NCBI RefSeq assembly: GCF_016107395.1
Contig: NZ_JAAIKO010000006.1
Location: 124,001 to 188,000, forward strand
DNA length: 64,000 bases
Direction of reading: 5' to 3'
Source of the DNA: Streptomyces fildesensis
Lineage (GTDB): Bacteria; Actinomycetota; Actinomycetes; Streptomycetales; Streptomycetaceae
This document shows, in pieces, positions 4,554-57,148 of the stretch; within the stretch, counting starts at the first letter, position 1; each line of letters starts with the position of its first letter. Both the position numbers and the translations under genes were made by a program. A model generated the notes under the pieces. It worked only from the letters and a program-made list of their open reading frames with translations, searched no databases and had not been told where the DNA came from.

Positions 4554-5561
4554 ATGCCCCGTCCCGTCACCCTCTTCACCGGCCAGTGGGCGGACCTGCC
4601 CTTCGAGGAGGTCTGCGCGCTCGCCTCCGGCTGGGGATACGACGGCCTGGAGATCGCCTGCTGGGGCGACCACTTCGAGGTCGACCGCGCGCTCGCCGAC
4701 AGCAGTTACGTACCGCGGCGGCTGGAGATTCTGGAGAAGCACCACCTCAAGGTGTGGGCGATCTCCACACACCTCGTCGGCCAGGCCGTCTGCGACCACC
4801 CCATTGACCAGCGCCACCAAGACATCCTCCCGGCCCGCATCTGGGCCGACGGCGACGGCGAAGGGGTACGCCGCCGTGCGGCGCAGGAGTTGAAGGACAC
4901 CGCCCGCGCCGCCGCACTGCTGGGCGTCGACACCGTGGTCGGATTCACCGGCTCGTCGATCTGGCACACCGTCGCCATGTTCCCGCCCGCGCCCGCCGCC
5001 ATGATCGAAGCGGGCTACCAGGACTTCGCCGACCGCTGGAACCCGATCCTCGACGTCTTCGACACCGAGGGCGTCCGGTTCGCCCACGAGGTGCACCCGT
5101 CGGAGATCGCCTACGACTACTACACGACGGTCCGCGCGCTGGAGGCCATCGGCCACCGGCCCGCGTTCGGTCTCAACTGGGACCCCTCGCACTTCGTCTG
5201 GCAGGACCTCGACCCGGTGAACTTCATCCTCGACTTCGCCGACCGGATCTACCACGTCGACTGCAAGGACGCCAAGGTCCGCACCGGGGACGGGCGGCGC
5301 GGCAGGCTCTCCTCGCACCTCCCGTGGTCCGACCTCCGGCGCGGCTGGGACTTCATCTCCACCGGGCACGGCGACGTGCCCTGGGAGGACAGTTTCCGGG
5401 CGCTGAACGCCATCGGCTACACCGGACCGCTCAGCGTCGAATGGGAGGACGCGGGCATGGACCGGCTGTTCGGTGCCCCCGAAGCGCTGGCCTTCGTGCG
5501 CCGCCTGGCGGCGATCGAACCCCCCGCCGCCTCGTTCGACGCGGCGTTCTCCGCGAAGTGA
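4554..5561 (+). CDS. Sugar phosphate isomerase/epimerase (xylose-isomerase-like TIM barrel)
   Basis: AP-endonuclease-2-type TIM barrel, 335 residues, the family of sugar and inosose isomerases, epimerases and dehydratases. Metal-binding acidic and His residues are visible in [36 protein letters not shown] and LSVEWEDAG. The start at 4554 has a ribosome-binding site CGGAGGA six bases upstream. It is the last gene of the importer/dehydrogenase operon, so it probably acts on the oxidised sugar (for example keto-inositol or a keto-sugar). The exact reaction cannot be read from sequence. Confidence 0.9.
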
Positions 5562-8586: not shown

Positions 8587-10056
8587 TCAGTCCTCCCGAT
8601 GGTGCGTCCGGCTCGGGAGCAGGAAGGCTGACGCGAAGGCCGCGGTCAGCAGCCCGGCCGCGATCCAGAAGGTCACCTGCATGGCCCCGTCGAATCCTCC
8701 GGTGCCCCCGTGGGTGAGGCAGCTCAGGAAGACCGTGCCCAGAGCTGCCACCCCGATACTGTTGCCCACCTGCTGGAAGGCGTTCAGCAGTCCGGAGGCC
8801 GAGCCGGTCTCCTTGATGGCCACGCTCCCGATGGCGATGTTGTAGTAGGGCGTCAGTACGCCGCCCATACCCAGTCCGATCACCAGCAGCGCCGGCAGCA
8901 GCTGCCACGCTGTCACCGTTTGATCGCTGGAGTGGATGTTGGCGACGACGACGGTCAGGGCCACCGCCCCGACGGCCAGGGCCCCCAGCCCCGCCTGCAG
9001 GGTCGCCCGGTCACCCCACCGGCGCACCAGCACCGCTCCGGCGAGGGCCGCACCGATGGCCGAGCCGAGTGTCCAGGGCATCATCACCAGCCCGGCGTCC
9101 AGGGCCGAGAACCCGTGGCCGAGCTGCAGCTGAACGATGAGCGCGAACATCATGCCGCTCAGCGCCACGTAGTACAGCATGCCCAGCAGCAGCGCGACGA
9201 CGAACCGCATGTTGTTGAACAGCCCGAGTTCCACGAGCGGGGTGCGCCCTGCCGCGGCACGGCGCCGCTGGTGCATCCCGAAGACGACGAGCACGGGTAG
9301 TGCGGCGGCCATGCTGATGAAGCACCAGGCGGGCCAGCCCTTGTCGCGTCCCTGCATCAGGGGGTAGGCGAGCAGGAGCATCGCCGCCGCCGCCAGCGCC
9401 GTACCCACTCCGTCCAGCCGGCGCGATCGGCCTCGGTCGGTGGGGCCGGTGCCGGGGATGAGTTTGATCCCGCCGATGACCGCGGCGAGACCGATCGGTG
9501 CGTTGACGAAGAACACCGCGCGCCAGCCCAGGCCGAACAGGTCGCCACTGGCCAGAGCGCCGCCCAGGATGGGTCCGATGATCGCCGCCATACCCACGAC
9601 CGGGCCCATCATGCCGATCGCCTTCGGGAGTTCACGCCCCGGGAACAGCTCCCGCATGATGCCGAGGCCCTGCGGGACCATGATGGCGACGAAGAACCCC
9701 TGCAGGCTGCGCATCCCGATGAGCATGTCGGTGTTCACGGAGAGTCCGGCGACCACCGACGCGACGGTGAAGCCGGCGGTGCCGACCAGGAACACCCGCT
9801 TGAGGCCGAAGATGTCGCCCATCCGCCCCCCGGTGATCAGCATCGTGGCGAAGGCGAGGGTGTAGCCGGCGGTCATCCACTGGAGATCGGAGTAGCTGCC
9901 GTGCAGTCCGGTGCGGATCGTCGGGCCGGCGGTGCTGACCATCATGGAGTCGAGCAGGTCCATGCAGTGGGTGGCCAGGACCGCGGCCAGCGCGTACCAG
10001 CGCAGGCGGTGCCTTGCCGGGACGGCGGTGGTGGTGGCCTCCGCGACGACAGCCAT
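8587..10056 (-). CDS. MFS drug efflux transporter (DHA2, EmrB/QacA type)
   Basis: 489-residue proton-driven antiporter of the 14-TM DHA2 family. Visible motifs are the family N-terminus with MDLLDSMMVSTAGPTIRTGL (TM1 motif D1) and motif A TGGRMGDIFGLKRVF between TM2 and TM3. Length and spacing are normal. A ribosome-binding site AAGGGA precedes the ATG. No TetR or MarR regulator gene is adjacent, unlike many DHA2 loci. The exported substrate is unknown. Confidence 0.93.
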   Translation of the reverse strand: MAVVAEATTTAVPARHRLRWYALAAVLATHCMDLLDSMMVSTAGPTIRTGLHGSYSDLQWMTAGYTLAFATMLITGGRMGDIFGLKRVFLVGTAGFTVASVVAGLSVNTDMLIGMRSLQGFFVAIMVPQGLGIMRELFPGRELPKAIGMMGPVVGMAAIIGPILGGALASGDLFGLGWRAVFFVNAPIGLAAVIGGIKLIPGTGPTDRGRSRRLDGVGTALAAAAMLLLAYPLMQGRDKGWPAWCFISMAAALPVLVVFGMHQRRRAAAGRTPLVELGLFNNMRFVVALLLGMLYYVALSGMMFALIVQLQLGHGFSALDAGLVMMPWTLGSAIGAALAGAVLVRRWGDRATLQAGLGALAVGAVALTVVVANIHSSDQTVTAWQLLPALLVIGLGMGGVLTPYYNIAIGSVAIKETGSASGLLNAFQQVGNSIGVAALGTVFLSCLTHGGTGGFDGAMQVTFWIAAGLLTAAFASAFLLPSRTHHRED

Positions 10057-46769: not shown

Positions 46770-48284
46770 TCAGTCGACCTTGACCCAGTCCATGGTGCGT
46801 TCCACCGCGCGCTTCCAGTCCGCGTAGCCCGACTCGCGGCGGTCCTCGTCCCATTCGGGATCCCAGCGGTGGGCCTGGTTCCAGTTGGCCCGCAGCTCGT
46901 CGGTGTCGCGCCAGAAGCCCACGGCCAGGCCGGCCGCGTAGGCCGCGCCCAGCGCCGTGGTCTCGGCGACCTGCGGACGGATCACGGGCACGCCCAGTAC
47001 GTCCGCCTGGGTCTGCATGCACAGGCTGTTGGCGGTGACGCCGCCGTCGACCTTCAGTACGGCCAGGTCGACACCGGAGTCCTTGGCCATGGCCTCGACG
47101 ACGTCGCGGCTCTGGTAGCAGATCGCCTCCAGGGTGGCCCGCGCGATGTGCGCGTCGTTGTGGAAGCGGGCCAGACCGACGATGGCGCCGCGCGCGTCGG
47201 AGCGCCAGTACGGCGCGAACAGGCCGGAGAACGCGGGCACGAAGTAGACGCCCGCCGAGTCCTCGACACGGCGGGCCAGGGTCTCGCTGGCCGCCGCGTC
47301 ACCGATGATGTGCAACTGGTCCCGGAGCCACTGCACCGCGGATCCGGTCACCGCGATCGAACCCTCCAGCGCGTAGACCGGGTCCTGGCCGGCGAATTGG
47401 TAGGCGACGGTGGTCAGCAGCCCGTGCTGGGAGCGCACCGGACGGTTGCCGGTGTTGAGGAGCAGGAAGTTGCCGGTGCCGTAGGTGTTCTTCGCCTCGC
47501 CCTCCGCGAAGCAGACCTGGCCCACGGTGGCGGCCTGCTGGTCACCGAGGATTCCGCTGATCGGTACGCCTGCCAGCGGGCTGACGTCGGGCGACTGACC
47601 GTACCCGGCCGGTTCGCTGGACGGTTTGATCTCCGGGAGCATGGCGCGGGGGATGGCGAAGAACGACAGGAGTTCGTCGTCCCAGGCCAGCGTCCGCAGG
47701 TCCATCAGCATGGTGCGGGAGGCGTTGGTGACGTCCGTGATGTGCACGCCGCCCCTCGGGCCGCCGGTGAGGTTCCACAGCACCCAGGTGTCCATCGTGC
47801 CGAAGAGCGCGTCGCCGCGCTCGGCGTCCGCGCGGACCCCGTCCACGTTCTCCAGGATCCACTGGACCTTGCCGGCGGCGAAGTAGGTGGCAGGCGGCAG
47901 GCCGGCCTTGGCGCGGATCACCTCGCCCTTGCCTTCGCGCTCCAGGGCGCTGGCGATCCGGTCGGTGCGGGTGTCCTGCCAGACGATGGCGTTGTAGTAC
48001 GGCCGCCCGGTGTGCCGGTTCCACACCAACGTCGTCTCGCGCTGGTTGGTGATGCCGAGGGCGGCCAGGTCGCTCGCCGCCAGATGGTGCTTGTTCATGG
48101 CGGTGGCGACGACCGAGCGGGTGCGCTCCCAGATCTCCACCGGGCTGTGCTCCACCCAGCCGGCCTTGGGCAGGATCTGCTCGTGTTCCAGCTGATGGCG
48201 GCCGACCTCGTTACCGCCATGATCGAAGATCATGAAACGGGTGCTCGTCGTGCCCTGGTCGATCGCGGCGACGTAGTCCGCCAT
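46770..48284 (-). CDS. glpK: Glycerol kinase
   Basis: Phosphorylates glycerol to sn-glycerol-3-phosphate. 504 residues, normal length, FGGY fold: [16 protein letters not shown] at the N-terminus, [38 protein letters not shown] and [15 protein letters not shown]. It lies downstream of the facilitator gene on the same strand (106 bp gap), as in the gyl operon of Streptomyces, so the two are probably co-transcribed. Neither a GylR-type regulator nor a glycerol-3-phosphate dehydrogenase gene is adjacent. Confidence 0.97.
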
Positions 48285-48389: not shown

Positions 48390-49232
48390 TCACTCGTCCT
48401 CGGGCAGGATGCTGCCCGCCGGCTGTTCGGCGTGCTCCGGCAGGAACGGTCTGACGACGTAGTGGTAGACGGCGGCGCCGATCGGGCCGCCGATGAGCGG
48501 GCCGACGATGGGCACCCAGAAGTAGAGATCGCCGTACTGGTCGCGCCACGCGCTGTTGTAGCCGGTGATGTAGCTCGCCAGCCGCGGACCGAAGTCACGG
48601 GCCGGGTTGATCGCGTACCCGGCGTCGGTGCCGATGGCCATGCCGATCGCCACCACGAGGAACCCGATCAGCAGGGGGCCCAGGTTCGCCTTGGGAGCGG
48701 TGTTGAGTACATCGGTCAGCGCCATGATGACGAGCAGCAGGATGGCCGTGCCGATGATCTGGTCGCGGAGCGCGCCCCATTCGCTGATCGGGAAGACGCC
48801 GTTGCCGGGCAGGGTGGAGAACACCCCCTGGGTCTTGATGGTGTGACCCGGGTCCGCCTTGGCGAGGACTTCGGAGGAGTTCCAGCGCACCAGCAGCGCG
48901 GCGGTGAAGGCTCCCGCCGTCTGTGCCAGCGCGTACGGGGCGACCCTCGCCCATGGGAAGCCGCGGAAGATGGCCAGCGCGAGGGTCACGGCCGGGTTGA
49001 GATGCGCGCCCGACAGCCGTGCCGCGACGTACACACCGAAGGTGACGCCGAACCCCCACGCCCACGCGATGCTGTCGTGGTCGCCCAGGTCGGCGGCGAC
49101 GACCTGGGCGACCACTCCCACGCCGAACAGGATGAGCACCAGGGTGCCGAGGAACTCGGCGAGCAGTTCGCCCAGCAGCCGGTGCGAGGCCAGCCGGCCC
49201 ACCACTTTGGGAGCATCTGTCGTATCGGCCAT
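48390..49232 (-). CDS. glpF: Glycerol uptake facilitator (aquaporin family)
   Basis: 280-residue MIP channel with six TM helices and both pore motifs: SGAHLNPAVTLALA and AGYAINPARDFGPR, the second with the Asp after NPAR typical of glycerol channels. The start at 49232 has AAGGG nine bases upstream. It heads the glycerol operon with glpK and passes glycerol to the kinase. Confidence 0.95.
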   Translation of the reverse strand: MADTTDAPKVVGRLASHRLLGELLAEFLGTLVLILFGVGVVAQVVAADLGDHDSIAWAWGFGVTFGVYVAARLSGAHLNPAVTLALAIFRGFPWARVAPYALAQTAGAFTAALLVRWNSSEVLAKADPGHTIKTQGVFSTLPGNGVFPISEWGALRDQIIGTAILLLVIMALTDVLNTAPKANLGPLLIGFLVVAIGMAIGTDAGYAINPARDFGPRLASYITGYNSAWRDQYGDLYFWVPIVGPLIGGPIGAAVYHYVVRPFLPEHAEQPAGSILPEDE

Positions 49233-49710
49233 TGGTCCAGCCCTTCCCGACGCGTGGGCCCGCTCCCCGTCGCGGTGCCGGTACTGCGATGTGCCGGCGT
49301 CACGACGTGTCGGTGGACCCGCTTCCGACTCACGTCTGACCCATTCGACAGGTACAGCGGCCCGGCGGCACCGCGGGGAGCCCCTCGTGCTGCCGAACGA
49401 GTGACGCGGCGCTTCCCGCCGCCCCGCGGCGGCCAAAGGCCGAGGTCATGGAGGGGCGGTGGGGCGCGGCCGTTCCACCGGGGAAGAGAAGTCCGCAGAA
49501 AAATGCCCGAGAGGACTTGAGTCGTGCTCGAATACCGGTCGAATCGTGGCCAATTCTTTCTCAATGGCACGTCAACTCGAAGTAATGGATCGTATGTTCA
49601 TATTGCGGAGCCGGAATCCGCCTCGCTACGCTTCCGGGGATTCGAGAGGAAACACTCCCCTTTTCCCCATCTCTGCGGGTATTCCGCCCGGGACGTAGGA
49701 CGGCCTCGCC
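49233..49710. other. 478-bp divergent intergenic region
   Basis: Carries the promoters of the glycerol operon (minus strand) and of the RiPP operon (plus strand). The right half (49500-49690) is unusually AT-rich for this genome (GCCAATTCTTTCTCAATGG, TATGTTCATATTGCGG). Short open frames occur but lack ribosome-binding sites. No gene or clear operator is supported. Confidence 0.6.
49603..49632 (+). promoter_or_regulatory. Candidate promoter of the RiPP operon
   Basis: TTGCGG (49603-49608), an 18-bp spacer and TACGCT (49627-49632), about 70-80 bp before the MFS start, in the AT-rich part of the intergenic region. Pattern-based only. Confidence 0.35.
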
Positions 49711-51042
49711 ATGACCGCTGCACGTCGCACGTCGCCCGGCAGCCAGTCCCGGGACTTCTGGCTGTACTGGTCGGCGGGCACCTCCGACGCGCTCGGCACC
49801 CAGGCCTCGGGCCTGGTACTCCCGCTGCTGCTGCTCGGTCTCGGCTCGTCGCCCGGCACCGTCGGCGTCCTGGCCTCGGTCTCCGCGATCGGTGGACTGC
49901 TGGCCGGGCCGCCCGCGTCCGTGCTGGCCGACCGGCGCTGGCGACGGGGGATGATGGTGGGATCCGCGCTGGTGGCGGCAGGTGCGATGGGTGCGATAGC
50001 CGCTGCCGCGGCCTGGGGCCGGCCCTCGCTGCTCCTTCTGTGCTCGGCCGCGCTCGTCGAGCGGGTGGCCACGGCGTGCTACGAGGCGGCCGCCCGCGGG
50101 ACGCTGGTCACCGTGGTGGCGCCGGTCCACTATCCGCGTGCCATCGCGCGGCTGGAGGCGGGGGAGCAGGGCGCGCTGGTGGCCGGCCCCGCGCTGGGCG
50201 GCCTGCTGTTCCCGCTGGCCCGCTGGCTGCCGTTTCTCATGGACGCTCTTTCCTATGTGTTCTCCGCTCTCTGCGTACGGGCCATCCGAGCCGATCTCAA
50301 TCCGCACCAGAAATCGGAGGATTCGCCTCCGCGCTTTACCGAAGAATTCCTGGCCGGATTACGTTTCGTGCGCAACGAATCGTTTCTTCGATTTGTGCTG
50401 CTGTGGACGGCAGGCGTCAACGGGCTCTTGACAGCGCTGTATTACGGCGCGGTGTTCAGCATCCGCGGCCAGGGCTCCGGCACCGCGTCCACCGGTCTCG
50501 TCCTCGCGCTGTCGGGGGCCGCCGGGCTGGTCGGCGCCGCCGCCGCGCCCCGGCTCGCACGGCGGATCCCCGCCGCGCGGATCGTGATCGCCGCCTCCTG
50601 GACCATGGTGCCGGTCGCCGCCGGCCTGGCCTTCGCCACCCACGCCTGGGTCTACGGCCTGCTGTTGGGCTCCGTGTCGCTGACCGTCCCGGCGGTCGCG
50701 GTCGTCCTGCACTCGCGGGCCGTCCTGGTGACCCCCGACCAGCTCCAGTCCCGGGTCGGCACCACGCTGGACACCGCCTGCGGAGTCGCCTCCGTCCTGG
50801 CCCCGGCCGCCGCCGGACTGCTCACCGACCACCTCGGGTCCACCCGTACGGCACTGCTCTGCGCGGCCGGGCTGGCTGTGCTCGCCGCCTACGCCACCGC
50901 GACCGCGGCCCGCCGGTTCCTGCCCTCGGACCACGACCCCGACCGTGAACCCGGCTCCGACAACGACCCGGCCACCGACCCGAACCACGACCCCGCCCTG
51001 CTGTCCCGTCCCCAGCCGCTGGAAGCCGGTGAGCCCTCATGA
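49711..51042 (+). CDS. MFS transporter, probable RiPP exporter
   Basis: 443-residue 12-TM transporter of the MFS type that resembles macrolide/enterobactin-type exporters (FWLYWSAGTSDALGTQASGLVLPLLLL; motif A-like ASVLADRRWRRGMM; LARLEAGEQGALVAGPALGG). The tail is a hydrophilic Asp/Pro/Asn-rich stretch (DHDPDREPGSDNDPATDPNHD). Bases 50230-50410 inside it are noticeably less GC-rich than the surroundings, a hint of transfer. It overlaps the peptidase gene by ATGA, tying it to the peptide-maturation genes; export of the mature peptide is inferred. Confidence 0.9.
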   Translation: MTAARRTSPGSQSRDFWLYWSAGTSDALGTQASGLVLPLLLLGLGSSPGTVGVLASVSAIGGLLAGPPASVLADRRWRRGMMVGSALVAAGAMGAIAAAAAWGRPSLLLLCSAALVERVATACYEAAARGTLVTVVAPVHYPRAIARLEAGEQGALVAGPALGGLLFPLARWLPFLMDALSYVFSALCVRAIRADLNPHQKSEDSPPRFTEEFLAGLRFVRNESFLRFVLLWTAGVNGLLTALYYGAVFSIRGQGSGTASTGLVLALSGAAGLVGAAAAPRLARRIPAARIVIAASWTMVPVAAGLAFATHAWVYGLLLGSVSLTVPAVAVVLHSRAVLVTPDQLQSRVGTTLDTACGVASVLAPAAAGLLTDHLGSTRTALLCAAGLAVLAAYATATAARRFLPSDHDPDREPGSDNDPATDPNHDPALLSRPQPLEAGEPS

Positions 51043-52952
51043 GCGATCTGCCCGCCGTCCCCGCCACCCCCGTCGGCCGGGACTCCGGACTGGGCTACCA
51101 GGTCTACCGGCCCGTGCTGCCCGCCACCTGCCGGCGGTCGCCCGGTCTGATGGTGCTCACCGGGGACGTCGACGGCCGCTGCGAGGTCTTCGCGTGGGAC
51201 GCCGCCACCGGCGCCGCCCGCCAGGTCACCGACCGCCCGTACGGCACCCTGCTGTACGCCATCGACGCCGATGCCGTCATCTGGTGGTTCGACGAGGACC
51301 GGAACGGCCGCGGCACCTGGTGGATCCAGCCCTTCTCCGGCGGTCCCGACACCCCGGGGCTGACCGGCACCGGACCTGGCCGCCCCTGCGGGCTGGCCGT
51401 CAGCGACAGCGGGACCGTCGCGCTCGGGCTCGGGGACGAGCACGGACTGCGCGTCCACCTGGGCCCCCGGGGCGGCGCCGGACGCGAAGTGCTGCGCACC
51501 GACGGTCACGGCCTGCTGGTCGATCTCGCCCCGGCGGGCGACCTGCTGGCCGTCGCGCGCGGTGCGGCCGGAAAGGACGCGGTCACCCTGCTGACACCGG
51601 ACGGCGCTGTGGTGGAGAGCCTGCCGGGCACCGACGGTCGGCTGTGGGCACTTGGCTTCGCCCCCGGGCGCAGCACCCCCGAACTGCGCCCCGGGCGCAG
51701 CACCCCCGAACTGCTGCTCGTCGCCGAGCGCGACGGCCGCTACGTGATCGCCACCTGGCGCGCCGACACCGGACTCGAACTGCACCGCTGGTGCTCCTTC
51801 GACACCGAGATCACCGCCCGCTGGTGCCCGCAGGGCCGCACGGTACTGGTCCGCCAGGACCGGCACGGCCGCAGCAGGCTGGTCACCGCGGACCTCGACC
51901 GGCGTGAACTGGCGCCCGTCGCCGTCCCCGTGGGCACCGTGCTCGACGCGGCCCCGCAGCCCGGCGGCGATGTGCACTACCTGTGGACCGACGCGCTCAC
52001 CCCGCCGCGCACCCGCTCCCTGCTCGGTGCGCCGCTGCCCGGTCTCGAGGCGGTACCGCCGCCGATCGCCGGCCGCGCCGACGATGTGTGGACCCAGGGT
52101 CCCGACGGCCCCGTACACACCCTGCTCACCGTGCCCAGCGGCACGGCGGGACCGTACCCGCTGGTCTTCCTGGTGCACGGCGGCCCCGCCGCGCACGACC
52201 GGGACGCCTACGACCCGGCCGTGCACTCGCTCGTGGAGTCCGGCTTCGCCGTCGCCCGCGTCAACTACCGCGGCTCCACCGGCTACGGACCGCGCTGGCG
52301 GGCCGCGTACGGACAGGGCGTGGGACTGACCCAGGTCGCCGATCTCGCGCTGGTCCGCGCCGACCTGGTGCGCCGCGGCATCGCCCGCGCGGACGCGATC
52401 GGCCTGTGGGGGACCTCCTGGGGCGGCTACCTGGTGCTGCTGGCGCTGGGCACCCGTCCCGACCTGTGGCAGGCGGCCGTCGCGGTCAAACCGCTGGCCG
52501 ACTGCGCGACGGCGTTCGCGGCCGGCACCCCGGCGCTGCGCGCCCTGGACACCGAGCTGTTCGGCGGCACCCCGCTGCAGGTGCCCGAGATCTACGCGCG
52601 TTCGTCCCCGTCGAGTTACGCCGCCTCGGTCCGGGCACCGCTGCTGGTGGTCGCCGCGACCCAGGACGCCAAGTGCCCGCCGGAACAGGTCGAGACGTAT
52701 CTGGCGGCGCTGCGCGCCTCCGGCGTCCGGCACGACGCGCTGTGGCTGGACAGCGGCCATGACGGGCACGACGGCGGCGACCACGTACAGGTGCTGCACC
52801 GGGCGCTGGTCTTCCTGGACCGGCATCTGCGCGGCCCCCGTCGTCCGCAGCGCGCCGCGTACGAAGAGCTCCCCGCCCCGTCAGGGGTGGGGGCCAGGGG
52901 ACCGGCGGCCGAACCCGCCGGTTCCACCCGCCGGAACGCAGAGAGGAGGTAG
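51039..52952 (+). CDS. S9-family prolyl oligopeptidase, probable RiPP-processing peptidase
   Basis: 637-residue serine peptidase. The N-terminal beta-propeller (about 1-370) precedes an alpha/beta-hydrolase domain with VFLVHGGPAAHDRDAYD, GLWGTSWGGYLVLL (Ser460), ATQDAKCPPEQ (Asp543) and DSGHDGHDGGDH (His574 or a nearby His). No signal peptide, so it acts in the cytoplasm. It is coupled to the exporter gene and is followed within 5 bp by the precursor gene, so cleavage of the leader from the modified peptide is the obvious role, though unproven. Confidence 0.92.
   Translation: MSDLPAVPATPVGRDSGLGYQVYRPVLPATCRRSPGLMVLTGDVDGRCEVFAWDAATGAARQVTDRPYGTLLYAIDADAVIWWFDEDRNGRGTWWIQPFSGGPDTPGLTGTGPGRPCGLAVSDSGTVALGLGDEHGLRVHLGPRGGAGREVLRTDGHGLLVDLAPAGDLLAVARGAAGKDAVTLLTPDGAVVESLPGTDGRLWALGFAPGRSTPELRPGRSTPELLLVAERDGRYVIATWRADTGLELHRWCSFDTEITARWCPQGRTVLVRQDRHGRSRLVTADLDRRELAPVAVPVGTVLDAAPQPGGDVHYLWTDALTPPRTRSLLGAPLPGLEAVPPPIAGRADDVWTQGPDGPVHTLLTVPSGTAGPYPLVFLVHGGPAAHDRDAYDPAVHSLVESGFAVARVNYRGSTGYGPRWRAAYGQGVGLTQVADLALVRADLVRRGIARADAIGLWGTSWGGYLVLLALGTRPDLWQAAVAVKPLADCATAFAAGTPALRALDTELFGGTPLQVPEIYARSSPSSYAASVRAPLLVVAATQDAKCPPEQVETYLAALRASGVRHDALWLDSGHDGHDGGDHVQVLHRALVFLDRHLRGPRRPQRAAYEELPAPSGVGARGPAAEPAGSTRRNAERR
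51662..51714 (+). repeat. 27-bp tandem duplication inside the S9 peptidase gene
   Basis: Two copies of a 26-bp identical block (51662-51687 and 51689-51714, period 27 bp) give the repeated peptide PGRSTPEL-R-PGRSTPEL in the propeller. In-frame, so the protein stays intact. Confidence 0.9.
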
Positions 52953-52957
52953 CCACC

Positions 52958-53077
52958 ATGCAGAAGGACGTCATCCACAACGATCCGCTCGAGGACGAGG
53001 CGGAGAACCGGAAGCCGGGCGTGGGGGTGGTCATCAGGATCCCCTTCCGTAACGCCGACGAGCCGGAGAACAGCTGA
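52958..53077 (+). CDS. RiPP precursor peptide, 39 residues
   Basis: Encodes MQKDVIHNDPLEDEAENRKP followed by GVGVVIRIPFRNADEPENS. The ribosome-binding site GAGAGGAGGT precedes the ATG at good spacing. It lies between the S9 peptidase and the radical SAM maturase. The N-terminal half is acidic, like a leader; the central GVGVVIRIPF segment is the likely modified core. There is no Cys, and Ser occurs only at the C-terminus, so lanthionine or sactionine chemistry is ruled out and C-methylation or another radical modification of Val, Ile, Pro or Phe is more plausible. The leader/core boundary is a guess. Confidence 0.8.
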   Translation: MQKDVIHNDPLEDEAENRKPGVGVVIRIPFRNADEPENS

Positions 53078-53084
53078 GTCCGGA

Positions 53085-53115
53085 GGCCGGCCCGGCTCAA
53101 GCCGCCGGGCCGGCC
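53085..53115 (+). terminator. Hairpin between precursor and maturase genes
   Basis: Perfect 12-bp GC stem GGCCGGCCCGGC (53085-53096) / 53104-53115 with a 7-nt loop, 8 bp after the precursor stop and 76 bp before the maturase. Position fits an attenuating or mRNA-stabilising hairpin that yields more precursor than enzyme. Confidence 0.8.
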
Positions 53116-53191
53116 CACTCCGCACCACCCGATGCACCCCGTTACCGAATCCCTGTGCTGAACCCCTGTGCGACGAGGAAGAGAAGAAGCC

Positions 53192-55099
53192 GTGCGCGTA
53201 CTCCTGGTGAACATGCCCTGGTCCCCCATCGACCTTCCGTCGCTCGCGCTGGGCATCCTCAAGCGCAGCGTCGACGAGAAGACCCCCGGAGCGAGTGCGG
53301 AGGTGTTGCACGCCAACCTCGAATACGTGGACTGGATCACCCGACGGCGGGAGTTCACGCTGGAGGACTACGAGTACTTCTCGCTCTCCTCCTACTTCAT
53401 GGGATGCGGCGACTGGGTCTTCTCCGCCGCCCTGTACGAGGACCCGCAGTGGCGGGTCGCCGAGTTCACCGAGGCGATGAAGGGCCGGCTGCGCAAGGAG
53501 CGCATGGCCATGACCCTCGAACTGCACGAGGACGCGGCCGAGTTCGTCCAGCTGATGGCCGACCGGATCGTGGCGGCCGAGCCCGACGTCGTCGGCTTCA
53601 CCTCGACGTTCCAGCAGAACACCGCGGCGCTGGCCGCGGCCAAGTACGTCAAGCGCATGGCCCCGCACATCCGCATCGTCATGGGCGGCGCCAACTGCGA
53701 CGGCGCGCAGGGCGAGTCGGTGCACCGGAACTTCCCGTTCGTCGACTTCGTGATCCGCGGCGAGGGCGAGCAGACGTTCCCCGCGCTCCTGACCGCGCTC
53801 CAGGAGGACACCGACCTGACGAAGGTCCCCGGTCTGTGCCACCGGGTGGACGGGCGGAGCGTGGCCAACCCGATGAGCACCGTGCCGATGCCGCCGGCCG
53901 CCATCCTGCCGCCCGACTACACCGGCTACTTCGAGCGGCTGGCCGCGTCGAAGGCCCGGTCCTGGGTGGAGCCCAAGCTGGTGGTCGAGGGCGCCCGCGG
54001 CTGCTGGTGGGGCGAGAAGCACCACTGCACGTTCTGCGGCCTCAACGGCTCGTCGATGCAGTTCCGCAGCAAGAGCCCGGACACCTTCTACGAGGAGATC
54101 ATCGGCCTCGCAGAGAAGCACAAGGTGCTGGACATGTACGTCGTCGACAACATCCTCGACATGGGCTACCTCAGCACCGTCCTGCCGTGCATCATCGAGA
54201 GCGACTACGACCTGCGCATGCACATCGAGATCAAGTCCAACATGCGCGTCAACCAGCTGCAGATCCTCGCCGACGCCGGACTGATCTATGTGCAGCCCGG
54301 CATCGAGAGCCTCAACAGCCGGGTGCTCGACCTGATGGACAAGGGGGTCAGCGGCACCCAGAACGTGCGGATGCTGCGCGACGGCGCCGCGGTGGGGCTG
54401 TCCATCTCCTGGAACTACCTGCACGGCTTCCCCGGCGAGACCGCCGCCGACTACGACGACGTCATCGCCCAGATTCCGGCACTCGAGCACCTCAACCCGC
54501 CGGTCGACCTGTCGGCGCGGATCGCCATCGAACGGTTCAGCCCCTACTTCAACAAGCCCGAACTGGGCTTCTCCGAACTGCGTCCCGCGGAGCCCTACCG
54601 GCTGACGTACGACCTGCCGGAATCGGAGATGCTCGATCTGGCGTACGTCTTCGACGTGCCGCCGCGCGGCGTGGGCGACGAGACGGTCAAGCCGCTCAAC
54701 GACGCCCTTGCCGCCTGGAAGACGAACTACCGCAGCAGCCGTCTCACCCACGCGGACCTCGGTGACCGCGTCATCCTGGTCAACCGCCGGCGCGCCTTCG
54801 ACTGGACCACCCTCGAACTCGCCGACCCCGTCCAGGTGTCCGCGTTCCGGCTGCTGGAGCAGCCGCACGCGCCGGCCGCCCTCACCCGCAAGATCGCCGC
54901 CCGTAACCCGGGGGTGGCGGTCACCGAGGCGTCGGTCGAGGAGCTGCTGCTCGAATGGCGCCGGCTGGGAGTGGTGTTCACCGACGGCGGCCAGTACGTC
55001 CACGTGGCGCCGCCGGCGGTCAACGAGGACATGCTGCGGCTGGACTTCATGCGCTACGCCCACCAGGTCCGGCAGGTACAGCCCCCGGCCCTGGTGTGA
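53192..55099 (+). CDS. RiPP maturation radical SAM protein 1, cobalamin-binding type
   Basis: 635 residues. The N-terminal 200 residues match a B12-binding Rossmann domain (RVLLVNMPWSPIDLPSLALG, PDVVGFTSTFQQNTAALAAAKYVK, VMGGANC, VIRGEGEQTFPALL). The radical SAM core follows with C271-X7-C279-X2-C282 (GCWWGEKHHCTFCGLNG), the spacing I recall for the TIGR03975 peptide-maturation family rather than CX3CX2C. The C-terminal 150 residues are a helical extension, possibly peptide-binding. The GTG at 53192 follows GAAGAAG and gives the family N-terminus. It is the central modifying enzyme of the cluster; C-methylation is typical of B12-radical SAM enzymes but not shown for this family. Confidence 0.9.
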   Translation: MRVLLVNMPWSPIDLPSLALGILKRSVDEKTPGASAEVLHANLEYVDWITRRREFTLEDYEYFSLSSYFMGCGDWVFSAALYEDPQWRVAEFTEAMKGRLRKERMAMTLELHEDAAEFVQLMADRIVAAEPDVVGFTSTFQQNTAALAAAKYVKRMAPHIRIVMGGANCDGAQGESVHRNFPFVDFVIRGEGEQTFPALLTALQEDTDLTKVPGLCHRVDGRSVANPMSTVPMPPAAILPPDYTGYFERLAASKARSWVEPKLVVEGARGCWWGEKHHCTFCGLNGSSMQFRSKSPDTFYEEIIGLAEKHKVLDMYVVDNILDMGYLSTVLPCIIESDYDLRMHIEIKSNMRVNQLQILADAGLIYVQPGIESLNSRVLDLMDKGVSGTQNVRMLRDGAAVGLSISWNYLHGFPGETAADYDDVIAQIPALEHLNPPVDLSARIAIERFSPYFNKPELGFSELRPAEPYRLTYDLPESEMLDLAYVFDVPPRGVGDETVKPLNDALAAWKTNYRSSRLTHADLGDRVILVNRRRAFDWTTLELADPVQVSAFRLLEQPHAPAALTRKIAARNPGVAVTEASVEELLLEWRRLGVVFTDGGQYVHVAPPAVNEDMLRLDFMRYAHQVRQVQPPALV

Positions 55100-55184
55100 C
55101 CGGCCCCGGCACCTTCTCGTCGCTGGATCAGCACCGGCCCCGCACACAACAGCACCAGCGTCCGCGCACGCGAAGGAGACTCCG

Positions 55185-55853
55185 TTGAGCATCACCACCG
55201 ACACCACCCGGCCACCGGCCACGCTGACGATCACCGCCTGGCGCGACCACGATCCGGCCGCCTGCGAGCTTCCCGGCATGCTGCTGGGACGGCTGGAGGT
55301 CCAGGGCGGCGGATCGGCGGCGGTCCGGCAACTGTGGGACCAGGGCGCGCGCCGGGTCGAACTGCCGGGCGTCGTCGATCTGACCGACCCCACCGCGGCC
55401 GCGGACACCGTCCGTACTCTGTGCCTCATCCGCGATCTGACCGCCCGCGCCGTCTACGTCGACTGGCGGCTGCGCACCGGACCGGATCCGGAGGCCTGGC
55501 TGCCGCTGAACCATCTGCACCCGCCCCTGGAGGTGGAGGGTCCGCCGGACCCCGAGGAGGTGGTGCGCCAATGGCGCGACGGGCACTACCTGTGCAAGTG
55601 CATCTGGCGCAACGGTCCCGGCTTCGTGCAGATCCGCGACCGGCGCTGGGGCGAACTGCACCGCTTCACCGCCGAGGAGCCGCACTACCACCGGGCGATC
55701 ACCCTGCTGGAGCACGGCGCACCGGCCGCGGAGCTTCCCGCGGACGTGCTGGCCGACTTCCGCGAGGAGCGGCTGATCGGTGAGGTCGGCGAGCTGGCGT
55801 GGTGGCTGCCGTACCGGATCCAGCGCTGGATCCACACAGCGATGGTGGTGTGA
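55185..55853 (+). CDS. DUF5825-like RiPP-cluster accessory protein
   Basis: 222 residues, soluble, TTG start with AGGAGA five bases upstream. Conserved-looking features: ARRVELPGVVDLTD, AVYVDWRLR, WLPLNHLHPP, YLCKCIWRNGPGFVQIRDRRWGELHRFT. I recall this as the DUF5825 family that accompanies radical SAM maturase 1. No catalytic motif; it may be a partner that positions the peptide or substrate. Last gene of the RiPP operon. Confidence 0.85.
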   Translation: MSITTDTTRPPATLTITAWRDHDPAACELPGMLLGRLEVQGGGSAAVRQLWDQGARRVELPGVVDLTDPTAAADTVRTLCLIRDLTARAVYVDWRLRTGPDPEAWLPLNHLHPPLEVEGPPDPEEVVRQWRDGHYLCKCIWRNGPGFVQIRDRRWGELHRFTAEEPHYHRAITLLEHGAPAAELPADVLADFREERLIGEVGELAWWLPYRIQRWIHTAMVV

Positions 55854-56011: not shown

Positions 56012-57148
56012 ATGCGGATGCACGTCGACCAGCGTCATGAACTGGTGCTGAAGCTCGTCCGCGAACGGGGCAGTATCCGGGTCGCCGACCTGGCCGCCGA
56101 GCTGGGCGTCTCCTCCGTCACGCTACGCCGGGACGTGGAGACGCTGGCCGAGCAGGGTCGGGTGCGCAGGCTGCACGGATCGGTCGTCTGGCCGCACGAT
56201 CCGCAGGCCGCCGACCGGGCCGCGCCGAGCGCTCCCGCCGCCCCGGCCGGCGGCGGCCAGGGGCCCGTGATCGGCATGGTCGTGCCCACCACCGACTACT
56301 ACTTCGCGGCCGTCGTCGCCGGCGCCCGCGAGGCCGCCGCCGCCCGTGGCGCGCGCCTGGTCATCGGCCTGTCGCAGTACCTGCCGCACGAGGACCGCGC
56401 GCAGGCCGCGCGGCTGCTGTCGACAGGCGCCGACGGGCTGCTGCTCACCCCGAGCTGGGGGCACGGCGTGCCGGAGCCCGGCCAGGAGGAGTGGATCGCG
56501 CAGCAGGGCGTTCCCGCCGTGCTGGTGGAGCGCTGGGCGCCGCTCGGCAGTCCGGCGGCGGCGCTGGACCGAGTGCGTACCGACCACGCGCACGGCGCCG
56601 CGCTCGCCGTGCGCCATCTGGCCTCGCTCGGGCACCGTACGGTCGCGCTGGCCGCCCAGGAGAGCCCGACCGCCGTGCAGTTGGCCATCGGGCACGCGGC
56701 CGCGGTCGAAGCGCTGGGACTCGACCCGGCCCCCCGGTCGCCGCTGGAACTCGAGCCGTCGCGCGACGAGTCCGACCGGTTCGACCGGACGTTGGAGTAC
56801 CTGTGCGACGCGGTCGGCAAGCACGGGGTGACGGCGACGCTGGTGCACAGCGACGCGGACGCCATCGTGCTCATCCCACGGTTGCAGGCGCGCGGTGTGC
56901 GGGTGCCCGAGGACCTGGCCCTGATCGCGTACGACGACGAGGTCGCGGGTCTCGCGGATCTGCCGCTGACGGCGGTCGCCCCGCCGAAGCGCGTGGTCGG
57001 GGCGCTCGCCGCCGACCTGCTGCTCGACCGGCTCGCGGAGCACTCCCAGGGGGCCCCGGCGCAGCCGCGCCGGCATGTGGAGCTGCTGCCGGAGCTGCGG
57101 GTACGGCAGTCCTGCGGTGCGGCGGCCGGTAGCACGCTGAGCGAGTGA
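56012..57148 (+). CDS. Transcriptional regulator with DeoR-type HTH and LacI-type sensor
   Basis: 378 residues. The N-terminus is a DeoR-family winged helix (RHELVLKLVRERGSIRVADLAAELGVSSVTLRRDVETLAEQGRVRRLHG) rather than a LacI headpiece; a Pro/Ala/Gly linker (70-85) leads to a periplasmic-binding-like effector domain (IGMVVPTTDYYFAAVVAGAREAAAA, LIAYDDEVAGLADLPLTAVAPP). This hybrid is a known actinobacterial GntR/DeoR/LacI-sensor style and should repress the sugar operon downstream until an effector sugar binds. Confidence 0.9.
   Translation: MRMHVDQRHELVLKLVRERGSIRVADLAAELGVSSVTLRRDVETLAEQGRVRRLHGSVVWPHDPQAADRAAPSAPAAPAGGGQGPVIGMVVPTTDYYFAAVVAGAREAAAARGARLVIGLSQYLPHEDRAQAARLLSTGADGLLLTPSWGHGVPEPGQEEWIAQQGVPAVLVERWAPLGSPAAALDRVRTDHAHGAALAVRHLASLGHRTVALAAQESPTAVQLAIGHAAAVEALGLDPAPRSPLELEPSRDESDRFDRTLEYLCDAVGKHGVTATLVHSDADAIVLIPRLQARGVRVPEDLALIAYDDEVAGLADLPLTAVAPPKRVVGALAADLLLDRLAEHSQGAPAQPRRHVELLPELRVRQSCGAAAGSTLSE

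Follow-up and report, generated by a model that had tools for sequence, protein, structure and literature searches.

A very probable clavusporin-type RiPP operon with an arginine-bearing core in Streptomyces fildesensis

The subject of this analysis is a complete operon, very probably for a ribosomally synthesized and post-translationally modified peptide (RiPP) in Streptomyces fildesensis. It lies in a stretch of 64,000 nucleotides of contig NZ_JAAIKO010000006.1, which is referred to as the window. Five genes, all on the + strand and all with intact reading frames, follow one another in the order major facilitator superfamily (MFS) exporter, S9 peptidase, precursor peptide, B12-dependent radical S-adenosylmethionine (SAM) maturase and DUF5825 partner (Table 1). 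An earlier note on this DNA had described five same-strand genes at these places, and the coordinates confirm its account of their spacing: the exporter and peptidase genes overlap by 4 bp (51039-51042), and the precursor ATG at 52958 lies 5 bp past the peptidase stop codon (52950-52952), with a GGAGG-type ribosome site ahead. The probable start codon of the maturase is GTG 53192, a position that matches where its relatives begin, and the DUF5825 gene probably starts at TTG 55185, with AAGGAG ahead of the start codon.

Table 1 Features of the operon in the window (positions are those of the window)
Feature	Position	Strand	Evidence
MFS exporter, 443 aa, probable peptide exporter	49711-51042	+	PF07690 (MFS_1), 105 bits
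S9 / prolyl-oligopeptidase-type peptidase, 637 aa, probable leader peptidase	51039-52952	+	PF00326, 123 bits, cut-off 22.6
Precursor peptide, 39 aa, MQKDVIHNDPLEDEAENRKPGVGVVIRIPFRNADEPENS	52958-53077	+	homologue in 78/89 loci; alignment of 60 distinct sequences
Leader, residues 1-20, Pro at end	52958-53017	+	conserved over 60 distinct precursors; putative cleavage site
Core strand GVGVVIRIPF, residues 21-30	53018-53047	+	alternation in core; family pattern
Acidic tail RNADEPENS, residues 31-39	53048-53074	+	acidic tail in most of 60 distinct precursors
B12-dependent radical SAM maturase, CX7CX2C	53192-55099	+	TIGR03975, PF02310, PF04055; start from alignment
DUF5825 partner, 222 aa, C-terminal half predicted to resemble a RiPP recognition element	55185-55853	+	PF19142, 256 bits, cut-off 25 (258 bits in second scan)

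The 39 residues of the precursor include no Cys, no Thr and a single Ser, in agreement with its earlier description as cysteine-free and almost devoid of Ser and Thr. Its aromatic residues comprise one Phe (Phe30) and no Tyr, besides one His. For the unmodified peptides, [M+H]+ values of 2069.0774 (GVGVVIRIPFRNADEPENS) and 1056.6564 (GVGVVIRIPF) were computed. A search of the genome with the window peptide found no second precursor copy.

With a profile built from five seeds, 78 of 89 loci were found to have a small open reading frame (ORF) with the same leader close to the maturase. These 89 include the window, and one contig is represented twice (L019 repeats L012), so that 77 of 88 separate loci have the precursor. 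The absence of a homologous ORF in relatives had been set beforehand as the finding that would speak against a precursor; the result was the opposite, and a small ORF arising by chance was rejected in view of the homologues in most relatives. Among the 11 loci without a match, L021 has an assembly gap at this place, and the sequences of L039 and L054 start just 38 and 107 bases ahead of the maturase match. In L016, L018, L093 and L095 a precursor was searched for and none was found. L094, L096 and L098 carry YHTYTY or YHSYTY precursors instead; these are biphenomycin-like operons, located in Streptomyces sp. NRRL F-525, S. turgidiscabies and Nonomuraea. The remaining locus, L078 from Streptomyces antioxidans, contains two leader-like ORFs with other cores that fall below the E limit of 0.001, one at 8805-8882 (+), just after DUF5825, and one at 5051-5140 (-), with the leaders MKKDVVHDDP and MKKTIVHGDP.

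The precursor alignment comprises 60 distinct sequences, one locus (L045) having been dropped for masked letters. The leader is nearly invariant (K3 and P10 in 60/60, D9 in 58/60, D4 in 54/60), and a Pro at residue 20, directly before the core, is present in 44 of the 60. Six of the 60 end at Phe and lack the tail, namely the Micromonospora, Saccharothrix and Actinokineospora forms and that of a genus mate (L017). The precursor of L011 is identical to that of the window, and L012 differs by two synonymous and three replacement codon changes. These differences are too few to measure selection, and the precursor is taken as coding because it is deeply conserved.

The core follows a simple pattern. 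Val or Ile occupies columns 25, 27, 29 and 31 in 56, 58, 60 and 51 of the 60 precursors, column 33 is Phe, Ile or Leu in 58, and the columns in between are mostly Gly/Ser, Gly/Ser, Thr, Thr and Pro. When hydrophobic residues are counted at every second position, the longest run has a mean length of 4.95, compared with 2.30 in shuffled cores (n = 60). For the window core the run is 5, against a shuffle mean of 2.56 (p = 0.02); the precursors are related by descent, so that such single p-values are not independent. One face of the window core would carry V22, V24, I26, I28 and F30, the other G21, G23, V25, R27 and P29. The alternation recurs in branches whose cores are otherwise dissimilar, such as VTVTVTVKF and VEVSVSVSVGF. 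Exceptions are the forms QTGMRLIDIPI and GGMRWIDIPI, which do not follow it (run 3, p 0.25-0.27), and AGMIWINIPI, in which the run reaches only 4 (p 0.04). Five loci with WINIPI, RLIDIPI and RWIDIPI-type cores (L076, L079, L081, L088 and L089) form one clade with a conserved leader and have no S9 gene nearby; an MFS gene is also absent in the four of them with 6 kb of upstream sequence, L089 having 2.8 kb. The alternation is as would be expected of an amphipathic beta-strand with Val, Ile and Phe on one face. At core position 7, the column that is Arg in the window, Arg occurs in 7 and Lys in 4 of the 60 distinct precursors. On the maturase tree, taken over the 75 rows whose precursor could be read, the Arg state requires at least four changes.

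The maturase matches TIGR03975 with 601.7 bits (cut-off 281.85) over model positions 1-605 of 606; NCBIfam names this family 'RiPP maturation radical SAM C-methyltransferase'. It contains a B12-binding domain (PF02310) and a radical SAM domain (PF04055). Its cysteine motif, C271-x7-C279-x2-C282 when numbered from GTG 53192, is invariant in all eight aligned maturases including that of the window, and RGCWWGxxxHCTFCG is present in all 89 loci (24 extra rows without the motif are overlapping ORFs in other frames). The identification as a RiPP-type B12-dependent radical SAM enzyme with CX7CX2C stands, and the hidden Markov model check suggested for TIGR03975, PF04055 and DUF5825 gave matches to all three. 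The genome of the window contains one TIGR03975 match. Profile matches to solved B12-dependent radical SAM enzymes are closest for TokK (E 4e-14), followed by OxsB (8.7e-9) and CysS (1.2e-7). These three share the architecture of B12-binding and radical SAM domains with the window maturase and differ from it in acting on small molecules or carrier-bound substrates, not on RiPP precursors.

At E <= 1e-60, a maturase homologue is found in 8 of 35 genomes of the genus, including that of the window. A scan of named genomes yielded at least 561 relatives, of which the best 80 were kept; these are mostly from Streptomyces, with others from Micromonospora, Saccharothrix, Actinokineospora, Kutzneria, Actinomadura, Nonomuraea and Streptantibioticus. 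Among these best 80, where the contig leaves room, DUF5825 directly follows the maturase in 78/78 loci, an S9 gene lies close upstream in 64/75 and an MFS homologue upstream in 62/74. For eight loci from seven genus mates the corresponding counts are 7/8, 5/8 and 6/8. DUF5825 itself was found in 80 of 345 sampled Streptomycetaceae genomes and in 6 of 396 genomes drawn evenly over the phylum (four of them over the cut-off), each count including the genome of the window. When the search started from DUF5825, a same-strand maturase was found within 1.5 kb in 31 of 33 loci, which were the best matches of the Streptomycetaceae and phylum searches; both exceptions score below the Pfam cut-off. In a quick FastTree maturase tree, which omits L019 (duplicate contig) and L080 (truncated) and has some long branches flagged, the window, L011 and L012 make up a three-member clade whose local support is full. 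The L011 maturase is 99% identical to that of the window. One species carries two operons of this kind that differ in their cores, GVGVVVRIPF (L012/L019) and GVGVVVYL (L013). In a plasmid collection, 53 records have a maturase match at E <= 1e-60, including 18 from Rhizobium, 4 from Sinorhizobium and 4 from Mesorhizobium.

The closest characterised comparison is with the clavusporins. The abstract of a clavusporin study (Zhang, Li, Overton and Seyedsayamdost, Nat Chem Biol 2025) reportedly describes peptides that lower the surface tension of water and aid Streptomyces development, encoded by an operon widespread in actinomycetes. The clavusporin operon, mpc from Streptomyces, is cited in passages of PMC12257519, PMC12026744 and PMC12951456. 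According to these passages, clavusporins are C-methylated by a B12-dependent radical SAM/DUF5825 pair (PMC12257519), and their leader is removed by MpcP, an S9-type protease of the prolyl oligopeptidase (POP) kind (PMC12951456, PMC12257519). The passages on RiPP methyltransferases in a review (PMC11285071) do not name them. As far as the passages go, the clavusporin system and the window operon are alike in the radical SAM/DUF5825 pair and in the POP-type S9 leader protease.

The same five-gene order is present on plasmid pF1D25A of S. clavuligerus, with identities of 75% for the maturase, 62% for the S9 peptidase, 57% for DUF5825 and 48% for the MFS protein. Its precursor, MQKDVIHNDPLAGDEENRKPSVGITITVPFRNAEDADED at L162:5836-5955, is homologous to that of the window, and both have the same leader and acidic-tail architecture. 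The cores differ, SVGITITVPF in S. clavuligerus against GVGVVIRIPF in the window, the changes including Thr5 to Val and Thr7 to Arg. The incomplete gene table of pF1D25A in PLSDB lists the MFS protein, the S9 peptidase, the maturase and a hypothetical protein (DUF5825), and the precursor gene is absent from it.

Taken together, the window very probably holds a member of the clavusporin-kind family already described in Streptomyces, with an unusual Arg-bearing core; the probability that the five genes form a complete clavusporin-type RiPP operon is put at roughly 0.88. The designation as a RiPP operon made in the earlier note is upheld by the homologous small ORF in relatives and by the RiPP-type maturase, and C-methylation stays the best guess for the modification. 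Its statement that the maturase family lacks any product of known structure is not borne out, given the C-methylated clavusporins in the passages cited above. The suggestion that the modification would be new also falls, since C-methylation is reported for clavusporins and TIGR03975 is named as a C-methyltransferase; new chemistry for this operon is not supported.

By analogy with these relatives, for which C-methylation by such a pair and leader removal by such a protease have been shown, the following pathway is proposed for the window. The ribosome would make the 39-residue precursor, and DUF5825, probably through its C-terminal half, would hold the leader MQKDxIHNDPL and present the core to the maturase. 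The maturase would abstract hydrogen from unactivated side-chain carbons and add methyl groups from methylcobalamin, most likely at the conserved Val/Ile positions of GVGVVIRIPF. The S9 peptidase would cut after the Pro at the leader end, presumably at K19-P20, and the MFS protein would export the product. This product would be a hydrophobic peptide resembling an amphipathic beta-strand, probably surface-acting as the clavusporins are.

Several observations weigh against parts of this reading. An S9 gene is absent in 11 of the 75 best-80 loci with room for it. Such a gene accompanies all 44 distinct precursors with Pro at residue 20 and 11 of the 16 without it. Descent confounds this difference, and the 11 cases with S9 but no Pro make plain that the residue is not needed. 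Arg at core position 7 takes the place of the usual Thr, and the product may for this reason not behave as a neutral surfactant. Finally, S. clavuligerus is presumed to be the clavusporin producer from the name of the compound.

To characterize the DUF5825 partner, its structure was predicted with AlphaFold2. The alignment for the whole protein held 76 rows (75 of the 79 loci L020-L098, and the window) and gave a mean pLDDT of 90.2; the C-terminal half modelled alone, from 60 of those rows, reached 86.4. The whole model was re-aligned with VIA-align to 992 top Foldseek chains, where rows within 1 Z are counted as tied and values of Z below 8 may reflect merely a common arrangement: TbiB1 with leader peptide ranks first (Z 5.3, 2.7 A, 63 residues), RadC second (Z 4.7, on the N-terminal half) and ThcOx third (Z 4.7, 2.2 A, 61 residues). 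For the C-terminal half against 995 chains, read with the same limits, TbiB1 takes the first two places (Z 5.7 and 5.5; 2.8 A over 63 residues) and ThcOx the fourth (Z 4.5, 2.2 A over 59). TbiB1, a lasso-peptide B1 protein, is a RiPP recognition element (RRE), and residues 11-89 of ThcOx form one as well. The predicted fold of the DUF5825 C-terminal half may correspond to the winged helix with N-terminal strands found in both; DUF5825 differs from them in an additional N-terminal alpha/beta half and in showing no significant sequence or Foldseek similarity. For the N-terminal half, assignment to RadC (Z 4.7) or to fragments of TIM barrels (Z at most 4.0, with some from radical SAM enzymes at 2.7-3.6) was rejected, these values being too low.

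The evidence for an RRE in the C-terminal half is modest. With Foldseek, neither the whole DUF5825 model nor its C-terminal half matched anything at E <= 0.001. Third in the C-terminal ranking, nearly tied with the best, is 3h92 (Z 4.7), a Methanocaldococcus protein of unknown function that is not known to be an RRE, and the RRE chains stand within 1 Z of such unrelated rows; the lower rows contain many winged-helix regulators and some ribosomal proteins. A comparison of DUF5825 with PqqD by hhalign gave weak support (probability 1.8%, score 15.8, 3 of 100 column shuffles as good), the PqqD profile consisting of 26 stretches with L158-L161 and matches without a locus left out. A loose-limit Pfam scan of the 76 DUF5825 members found no convincing second family (best 0.041). 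On balance, the predicted models tip the scales slightly towards an RRE-like, leader-binding C-terminal half.

Other products of the same genes have to be considered. The B12-dependent radical SAM enzyme PbsB, which acts on biphenomycin-like peptides, forms a C-C bond between ortho-tyrosines according to a passage of PMC12257519, and such an enzyme in a RiPP operon can cross-link instead of methylate. In favour of a cross-link or other non-methyl modification by the maturase/DUF5825 pair are also the YHTYTY and YHSYTY loci (L094, L096 and L098; precursors near 2008-2115), where a TIGR03975-type maturase and DUF5825 occur with a second maturase-profile stretch (scores 311-326) and, in L094, the sole one scanned, with an MNIO. 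The biphenomycin-like operons of PMC12257519, pbs and its relatives, agree with the window in a B12-dependent radical SAM enzyme within a RiPP operon; a DUF5825 gene is present as well in the YHxYxY branch. They differ in having an MNIO, cores rich in aromatic residues and in some cases an arginase. The motifs FHAFRF, FHTFMF and YHxYxY are absent from the window precursor, and its core, with one Phe and no Tyr, offers no aromatic pair for a cross-link. No MNIO gene adjoins the window operon: the one PF05114 match in the genome (263.8 bits) lies at C54:98343-99134 (+), on a contig other than that of the window (C438). Since, moreover, the characterised radical SAM/DUF5825 pair methylates, as far as the cited passages report, a cross-linked or otherwise non-methyl product is regarded as very unlikely.

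A different question is what a C-methylated product would do. With Arg7 charging its polar face, it might be a cationic, membrane-active antimicrobial and not a developmental surfactant. The Arg and Lys counts at this core column and the four or more changes that the Arg state needs on the tree speak for such a role, whereas it would rest on a single extra charge and an unchanged hydrophobic face; it is considered unlikely, if the most plausible of the alternatives. A bolder combination would make the Arg7 lineages, including that of the window, a chemically distinct cationic subclass of C-methylated amphipathic beta-strands, with an Arg that is essential or itself C-methylated and a membrane activity in place of the surfactant role. 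In it, DUF5825 would be an RRE in disguise, joined to a novel alpha/beta half and handing the core over to the maturase. Mmp10, a B12-dependent radical SAM enzyme, C-methylates an Arg; the combination as a whole is improbable. Clusters are often silent in culture, and the operon could be silent or a decayed relic of a past pathway. The five intact frames, the retained maturase motif and a precursor identical to that of L011, where the maturase is 99% identical, make this very unlikely. The preferred reading is still a clavusporin-type operon whose product is C-methylated.

The flanks of the operon are ordinary. Upstream, and divergent from it, lie a glycerol kinase gene (glpK, 46770-48284, -) and a MIP-family channel gene (48390-49436, -). 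Downstream, a regulator (56012-57148, +), in which a DeoR-type helix-turn-helix is joined to a LacI-type sugar-binding domain, is followed by sugar-ABC genes. Part of the flank ORFs was scanned, and an extension of the cluster in either direction was rejected, the flanking genes being unrelated; the operon therefore most likely ends with DUF5825. The MNIO gene on contig C54 possibly marks a separate RiPP locus.

The alternation rule, the Arg7 state with its four or more changes on the tree and an RRE-like DUF5825 were not found in the literature searched, and the primary clavusporin paper (doi 10.1038/s41589-025-01882-8) may hold the alternation or the RRE point. The analysis corrects the view of a maturase family without a known product, places the window within a system widespread among actinomycetes and adds a catalogue of 60 distinct precursors. 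It gives a core design rule, Val or Ile at every second residue, and Arg and Lys variants that may serve as a natural series for probing the polar face. For DUF5825, a Pfam domain of unknown function, it offers a concrete structural hypothesis of leader recognition, and the combination of an Arg-bearing core with a possibly RRE-like partner half would merit a specialist note.

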